Positions 19,829 to 54,987 of a DNA stretch of 64,000 bases are shown here, piece by piece. The translations under genes were made by a program, and so were the position numbers. How positions within the stretch are numbered: position 1 is the stretch's first letter; each line of letters starts with the position of its first letter. Source of the stretch: a bacterium (GTDB taxonomy: Bacteria > Chloroflexota > Dormibacteria > Aeolococcales > Bog-877); the NCBI GenBank assembly GCA_021816695.1, contig JAKAXE010000003.1:1-64000 (forward strand), written 5' to 3'. The notes beneath the pieces are model-generated. The model was not told the DNA's origin and ran no database searches. It saw only the letters and a list, made by a program, of their open reading frames with translations.

Positions 19829-19856
19829 TTGACAGCGACGTACAACGTGCTATGTT
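19829..19856 (+). promoter_or_regulatory. putative sigma-70-type promoter for the ncRNA
   Basis: TTGACA (19829-19834), 16-nt spacer, TATGTT (19851-19856). Confidence 0.6.
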
Positions 19857-19862
19857 GGATTC

Positions 19863-20101
19863 AGGTATCCGGGTTCAGACGGAGGTGTCACGTAGTGCGT
19901 ACCGTCTGGAGCATGCTGAGGCACACTAGGGCGGAGTGAGCGGCCCCCCGGGGCCATCCCGGCGGAAGGTTTCCGCTGCTTCGCGTTGGGCCCCGGCAGA
20001 GGGCGACTCGCCACGTATTTCGTTCCGGCTTATCCGCCGGACGCGGTGCCTACAGCACCGGTGACTTATGGGAGCGGGCCAAAGTGCCCGCTCCTCTTTT
20101 T
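19863..20101 (+). ncRNA. structured small RNA of unidentified family (6S-like not excluded)
   Basis: Promoter upstream, intrinsic terminator at 3' end, at least five perfect-stem hairpins between, no plausible CDS. Confidence 0.6.
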
Positions 20102-20631
20102 GCCCTCAGCGCGTCGGCGAGGTAGTAGCGCAGGGAGGCAGGGTCCCTCACTCCTATCCGGGGTCCGGCCTCAACGGGTTGCCCCGGCATACCGGCCTCC
20201 AGCCACAGATCTGTGCTCCGGGAGCAGAGGTCCCGGCGATTGTCCGCCAGGGTAACCCCGAGGGCGCGGCAGAGGAGCGCCGGGCCGCCCACCACCTCCC
20301 CGGAGGGCCGGCGGCCGGCCCGGAGCAGGACCGCCTCGGCCTCCCCGACGGAGCCGGTCACCACGTTGAGGCAGTGATGCATCCCATAGATGAAATAGAC
20401 GTAGGCGTGACCGGCCGGTCCGTACATGGGCAGGTTACGGGGGGTGGGGCCGCGGCGGGCATGCGAGGCCGGGTCCGATTCCCCAAGGTAGGCCTCCACC
20501 TCCAAGAGTTCCAGCCTTATTGGGCCCGTCGGATCCCGCCGGACCAGCCAGCACCCCACCAGCTCCTGGGCCACCTCGGGGCTGGGGCGGGCGAAGAACT
20601 TTCGACCCAGGCGCGATCCCAGCGGGCTCAC
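20050..20631 (-). CDS. mpg: 3-methyladenine DNA glycosylase (Mpg/AAG family)
   Basis: ARPSPEVAQELVGCWLVRR, EVEAYLGESDPASHARRGPTPRN, MYGPAGHAYVYFIYGMHHCLNVV; GTG start at 20631 overlapping the pheT stop. Confidence 0.92.
   Translation of the reverse strand: MSPLGSRLGRKFFARPSPEVAQELVGCWLVRRDPTGPIRLELLEVEAYLGESDPASHARRGPTPRNLPMYGPAGHAYVYFIYGMHHCLNVVTGSVGEAEAVLLRAGRRPSGEVVGGPALLCRALGVTLADNRRDLCSRSTDLWLEAGMPGQPVEAGPRIGVRDPASLRYYLADALRAKRGAGTLARSHKSPVL
20071..20101 (+). terminator. strong intrinsic terminator
   Basis: GGAGCGGGC-caaagt-GCCCGCTCC followed by TCTTTTT. Confidence 0.88.
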
Positions 20632-54750: not shown

Positions 54751-54987
54751 CTCAGTACATCCCCCATCGAGGGGCTCCCCAAACCCAAGGGCCCAGGGTA
54801 ACCCGCCGGCCTGGTTCCGATCCCTACACCACCAGGTGGGTGCGCCGCACGCGGCTTTCCACTTCCCCTCAAGGAGGCTTGTGGGCCACCAGCTCTGTTG
54901 GCGCTCCCGGGAACTTCATCACTAGGGTCGGGCGCTGGCGTTCGGCGGGGCCCCGGGCCGCCTCCAAGGTAGCAGATGAGCGCGGGC

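Follow-up and report, generated by a model that had tools for sequence, protein, structure and literature searches.

What kind of gene lies at positions 19829-20101, beside the convergent gene mpg, in a 64,000-nucleotide stretch of DNA (the window, meaning the whole stretch analysed) from a member of the Dormibacterota? A first-pass annotation had taken it for a standalone, structured non-coding RNA of a lineage-specific family, possibly a divergent 6S RNA, in which no start codon, Shine-Dalgarno (SD) sequence or open reading frame (ORF) looked real. We have observed that the proposed promoter TTGACA-16-TATGTT is present and unique in 1 kb (1 promoter-like site at 19829-19856 versus 0.0 expected in shuffles), and 44 of 50 homologues have a comparable promoter, with the end of the -10 box mostly 36-48 nt 5' of the ORF described below. 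The terminator, proposed as a 9-bp stem with TCTTTTT, proved to have a 9-10 bp stem and is also single in 1 kb (1 site at 20070-20101 versus 0.3 expected by chance); in the alignment of the window's own family (family f1), both sides have changed at 5 of its 9 pairs. The 244-nt RNA has a predicted folding energy of -123.7 kcal/mol (z = -4.1), lower than in 200 of 200 dinucleotide shuffles. Thus, at the sequence level the element carries the promoter and intrinsic terminator of its own that are expected of a dual-function small RNA. The order of promoter, SD, ORF, GCCC strand, hairpins and intrinsic terminator is repeated across the homologues. The mpg reading frame, on the minus strand, crosses the complement of the terminator and of hairpin B before its stop codon at 20050-20052 (region 20050-20103), so that the 3' ends of mpg and the RNA gene apparently overlap here. 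The features are collected in Table 1.

Table 1. Sequence features of the RNA gene, with positions counted from the first nucleotide of the window.
Feature	Position	Strand	Sequence	Remark
Promoter, sigma-70 type	19829..19856	+	TTGACA-16-TATGTT, TG-extended -10	Sole promoter-like site in 1 kb
Shine-Dalgarno	19881..19885	+	GGAGG	14 nt 5' of the GTG start
14-codon ORF	19895..19939	+	GTG start, peptide M/V-RTVWSMLRHTRAE, stop TGA	Coding signature over 50 sequences
Helix P1	19943..20004	+	GCCC 19943-19946 / GGGC 20001-20004	Closes the central domain; 5' strand 3 nt past the stop
Helix P2	19949..19995	+	CGGGGCC/GGCCCCG	Compensatory changes at 2/7 pairs
Helix P3	19962..19976	+	GCGGAA/TTCCGC	Lineage-variable; 64% of cells paired
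Hairpin A	20025..20040	+	CCGGC-UUAUCC-GCCGG	100% of cells paired, one compensatory pair
Hairpin B	20045..20059	+	GGTGC/GCACC	All cells paired (100%); GC replaced by AU and by CG
Intrinsic terminator	20070..20101	+	GGAGCGGGC/GCCCGCTCC + TCTTTTT, 9-10 bp	Paired changes across family f1

It is evident that the RNA is not simply non-coding. A DNA search in relatives found that the segment common to the most distant homologues spans 19894-19955, and this segment contains a short ORF with the codons GTG CGT ACC GTC TGG AGC ATG CTG AGG CAC ACT AGG GCG GAG TGA. The peptide is the best-conserved portion of the RNA, above the downstream sequence. Corresponding peptides in other genera are MRTVWRLLRQTRAE, MRTVWSFLRHTRAE and VRTVWRYLRHTRAE, and those at the equivalent place in the sister family are MRTVWQRLRHGRAEG, MRTVFELLRHTRAER and MRSVYELLRHTRAER. 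Together they give the consensus M-R-T-V-[WFY]-x-x-L-R-H-x-R-A-E, with 14 residues here and 15 in the sister family. The aromatic residue 5 (W, replaceable by F or Y), R9 and the terminal RAE are near-invariant and keep a constant distance to the stop codon, or to one codon short of it. Over 50 sequences (42 unique), pN/pS is 0.43 for the reading frame of the ORF, compared with 1.26 and 1.68 for the two alternative frames; these values are pooled across related sequences and no tree was used. Start codons (ATG, GTG, TTG) and stop codons (TGA, TAA, TAG) are exchanged among the 50 sequences, and the stop stands directly behind RAE or one codon further on in 49 of them, the exception (G033) reading a few codons further. 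GGAGG is located 13-20 nt 5' of the ORF in nearly all homologues. A short ORF that has an SD and is under protein-level selection, another mark of a dual-function small RNA, is thus present, and the RNA element holds a conserved gene for a peptide of 14-15 amino acids, which overturns both the non-coding label and the judgement that no ORF here looks real. From these patterns we infer that the peptide is made and is important as such.

In two related genomes (G028 and G021) the peptide is extended at its N-terminus, with an in-frame ATG further upstream; their ORFs (L155 and L153, respectively) run to about 35 codons, of which the usual peptide forms the C-terminal part, with TVW occurring twice. 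The extended ORF of G028 reads MSTVWTIPRQMRLPLQLPYCGRTVWQLLRHGRAER.

Of 50 genomes of the order to which the window belongs, 47 carry the element, across two families and 17 genera of Dormibacterota. With a sequence model of the ORF region, it was detected in 17 of the 18 genomes of the window's family and in 30 of the 32 genomes of the sister family, normally as one syntenic copy per genome. No credible match to this model was found in 60 genomes from two other families of the class (f3 and f4). Weak matches there (E 0.001-0.01) were considered as homologues, and the two inspected are without the SD-plus-micropeptide arrangement; no element lies upstream of yebC (19 genomes) or beyond tyrS (18 genomes) in the f3 and f4 neighbourhoods. 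A match in G040 (E 8e-4) was discarded, as it sits in an apparent coding region. We further scanned about 85,000 species genomes for the peptide-plus-SD pattern. The 22 stretches obtained all come from MAGs that bear the label Dormibacterota, Chloroflexi or just "bacterium", and it is by these labels that the window was assigned to its lineage. This distribution agrees with the initial suggestion of a lineage-specific family.

The gene order ruvB-ruvC-yebC-(tyrS) / RNA / mpg-pheT-pheS is conserved, with yebC/tyrS divergent from the RNA and mpg convergent to it wherever mpg is located beside it. Genus g13 differs: there the element precedes tyrS and is co-oriented with it, and its own terminator-like hairpin still follows. 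This constant synteny and the convergent mpg indicate that the element is not a cis leader, as had been claimed, with g13 as a possible exception. The gene order, together with a terminator-like hairpin that is kept even in g13, also indicates an independent transcription unit, so that the standalone transcript proposed by the first-pass annotation is borne out. A classical cis-acting attenuator or leader of a neighbouring gene has to be considered, since an upstream ORF followed by structured RNA and a terminator is the anatomy of an attenuator, and the g13 element, directly 5' of tyrS and co-oriented with it, makes a cis role conceivable in that genus. However, mpg is convergent in those other lineages whose neighbouring gene was identified, a co-oriented downstream gene such as a cis attenuator would regulate was found only in g13, and the g13 paralogues are not beside any of these genes. 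Gene orientation speaks against a leader of either mpg or tyrS and largely refutes the cis-attenuator reading, which we consider very improbable. The g13 paralogues (L138, L139 and L140, in G025 and G041), which lie outside the usual gene neighbourhood, encode the peptides MRTCWQRLRRGRAET, MTRTIWQRLRRGRGEV and VTRTIWQRLRRGRAER.

We then sought compensatory changes among the homologues, using a seven-helix structure scored on a MAFFT alignment of f1. In this structure 92% of cells are paired, and both partners have changed at 12 pairs. None of 500 shuffles, which ignore relatedness, reaches its score, and sliding controls score far lower. The compensatory changes are located in hairpin A, hairpin B, P2, P3 and the terminator, whereas P1 and the hairpin over the SD have none. 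A conserved RNA structure, as expected of a dual-function small RNA, is therefore present, scored in f1 and seen also in the sister family; a similar stem and loop of hairpin A can be found in several other genera of both families.

The five hairpins first described (CAGACGG/CCGTCTG, GGCCC/GGGCC, GCGGAA/TTCCGC, TCCGGC/GCCGGA and CGGTGC/GCACCG) all exist where they had been placed, and two of them need qualification. GGCCC/GGGCC is a local alternative to the longer-range pairing of P1 and P2, of which P2 covaries and P1 is invariant in f1. CAGACGG/CCGTCTG shares bases with the SD and lacks compensatory changes; since it is also disrupted in several lineages, we rejected it as a conserved switch that sequesters the SD.

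P1 is of a different character. Its GCCC strand begins 6-7 nt past the RAE codons in 50 of 50 sequences and 0-3 nt past the stop codon in 49, and it pairs with a GGGC further away. The four core pairs are constant within f1, and for this reason covariation in P1 was not scored but judged by eye between genera, where the extensions vary in a compensating manner (GCCCAGG/CCTGGGC, GCCCAGTTGG/CCAACTGGGC and GGCCCGGATCT/GGGTTCGGGCC). The domain enclosed by P1 ranges from about 20 to 130 nt across homologues and differs in both length and sequence among genera. In several lineages the 5' strand of P1 is also able to form a short local hairpin that competes with the long-range helix (here GGCCC/GGGCC, 19942-19955), and in about one third of single-sequence folds this strand favours a local hairpin or pairing with the ORF.

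Given the fixed register between the stop codon and P1, this helix may be kept open by a ribosome that terminates or pauses there. When the ORF and the first nucleotides past the stop were masked in silico, P1 was lost, the tail hairpins and terminator were mostly kept (78% of tail positions unchanged on average), and no consistent alternative pairing appeared across species. The modelling therefore indicates that translation could gate the central domain of the RNA and probably does not gate its termination. A classical four-strand attenuator was also considered and rejected: no shared alternative structure emerged when the ribosome footprint was blocked in silico, so a switch of the classical attenuator type is not supported, and the mutually exclusive terminator and antiterminator of a cis attenuator were not found.

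At the level of sequence, then, the transcript architecture, coding signature, structure, stop-codon/P1 register, lineage distribution and synteny are documented, and the reading that we favour, and hold to be somewhat probable, is that these small RNAs form a new family specific to the lineage, standing alone, encoding a peptide and probably responding to translation. A free-standing RNA gene of about 235 nt would serve both as a tiny mRNA and as a structured RNA. Ribosomes would initiate at the GTG behind GGAGG and make the 14-residue peptide; if one of them terminates or pauses at the stop codon, it would have to hold P1 open, whereas in RNA that is untranslated or cleared of ribosomes P1 would fold. 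We infer in this way that the ribosome gates P1. As the RNA is mostly not followed by a co-oriented gene, it seems likeliest that the RNA or the peptide takes effect in trans, and the product would thus act in trans as a translation-responsive regulator, through the folded or unfolded body of the RNA, through the peptide, or through both.

The peptide could instead be the sole product of importance, the 3' part being a stabilising untranslated region with a terminator. The greater conservation of the peptide across the order and the variation of the central RNA domain between genera would fit such a pure micropeptide gene, but a simple 3' untranslated region needs no fixed P1 register, conservation extends to the GCCC strand behind the stop, and covariation is seen in hairpins A and B; we regard this explanation as unlikely. 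A special form of the translation-responsive small RNA is an arrest-peptide sensor, in which the nascent peptide would stall the ribosome, and thereby hold P1 open, upon stress or in the presence of a small molecule. The near-invariant aromatic residue 5 (about 10 codons before the stop), R9 and RAE at fixed distances, and the fixed stop/P1 register are consistent with this form, as would be, by analogy, a tunnel distance like that of TnaC, but there is no regulated gene downstream and the peptide is N-terminally extended in two related genomes, so that we propose it only tentatively. It is with the same reserve that we put forward its wider version, in which the nascent peptide of 14-15 residues would sense the state of the ribosome, and the position at which the ribosome stops would switch the fold of a trans-acting RNA, giving an order-wide, attenuator-like sensor without a downstream gene.

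We also addressed whether the element belongs to a known RNA family. At gathering thresholds, Rfam gave no match in the window region or in eight homologous loci, and the best sub-threshold score was that of sX14 (23.3 versus 80 bits), over the 3' end with the terminator. A divergent 6S RNA or other housekeeping RNA would share with the element its length and the lack of a co-oriented downstream gene, and 6S RNA is alike in size class and in being a standalone gene. However, the covariance model of 6S RNA (RF00013) is not matched by the element, another site in the window gives a better 6S candidate (39.8 bits), tmRNA was found elsewhere in relatives, and a conserved ORF is present here. The suggestion of a divergent 6S RNA is thus not upheld, and housekeeping RNAs in general have a negligible probability. 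A tmRNA was rejected separately, as it combines a tRNA-like domain with a tag ORF that has no SD, whereas the ORF here has an SD and a start codon and Rfam gave no match. The 6S candidate, at 54818-54930 on the minus strand, is sub-threshold (cut-off 46.4 bits, E about 1e-6), adjoins an aspS-like gene and is present as a single copy in 9 of 13 genomes of the window's family; it is probably the 6S RNA of this lineage.

No earlier description of the element was found in the literature, nor were papers on small RNAs of the phylum Dormibacterota found in the open literature, which was covered in part. With no Rfam match and no publication found, the element would thus represent an undescribed RNA family of a soil lineage that is largely uncultured. 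It would also be a protein-coding gene of very small size that bears signs of selection throughout an order. As its stop codon keeps a fixed contact with an RNA helix, it allows a concrete and testable proposal of small RNAs that are gated by ribosomes without being leaders, and the locus teaches that a non-coding call based on hairpins alone can conceal a coding gene.

Among known systems, arrest peptides such as TnaC and ErmCL regulate a co-transcribed gene in cis. The element resembles them in its very short ORF, its conserved C-terminus and a stalled ribosome that would be placed to alter the following RNA fold, but it has no such co-transcribed gene in most lineages. In Sinorhizobium meliloti, the trp attenuator RNA rnTrpL and its 14-amino-acid leader peptide peTrpL both act in trans; rnTrpL arises by attenuation upstream of trpE(G), starts at the ATG and is leaderless (PMC7298713). 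The element, too, is a short RNA ending at a terminator, with a 14-amino-acid peptide encoded in its 5' part, and just as rnTrpL and peTrpL can work apart from the downstream gene, the element would act in trans. It differs in having an SD, in being a separate gene and in mostly lacking a co-oriented downstream gene, and its peptide sequence, in which W5 can be F or Y, is unrelated to peTrpL. Spot 42 is a dual-function small RNA that encodes the 15-amino-acid SpfP (PMC11188072). Like the element, it is a standalone small RNA gene with its own promoter and terminator and a peptide of 15 residues; lineage and sequence differ, a protein partner, CRP, is known for Spot 42, and, compared at the level of Rfam, the element gave no match to Spot 42. 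The element therefore belongs to neither rnTrpL nor Spot 42, from which it is set apart by sequence, context and lineage.
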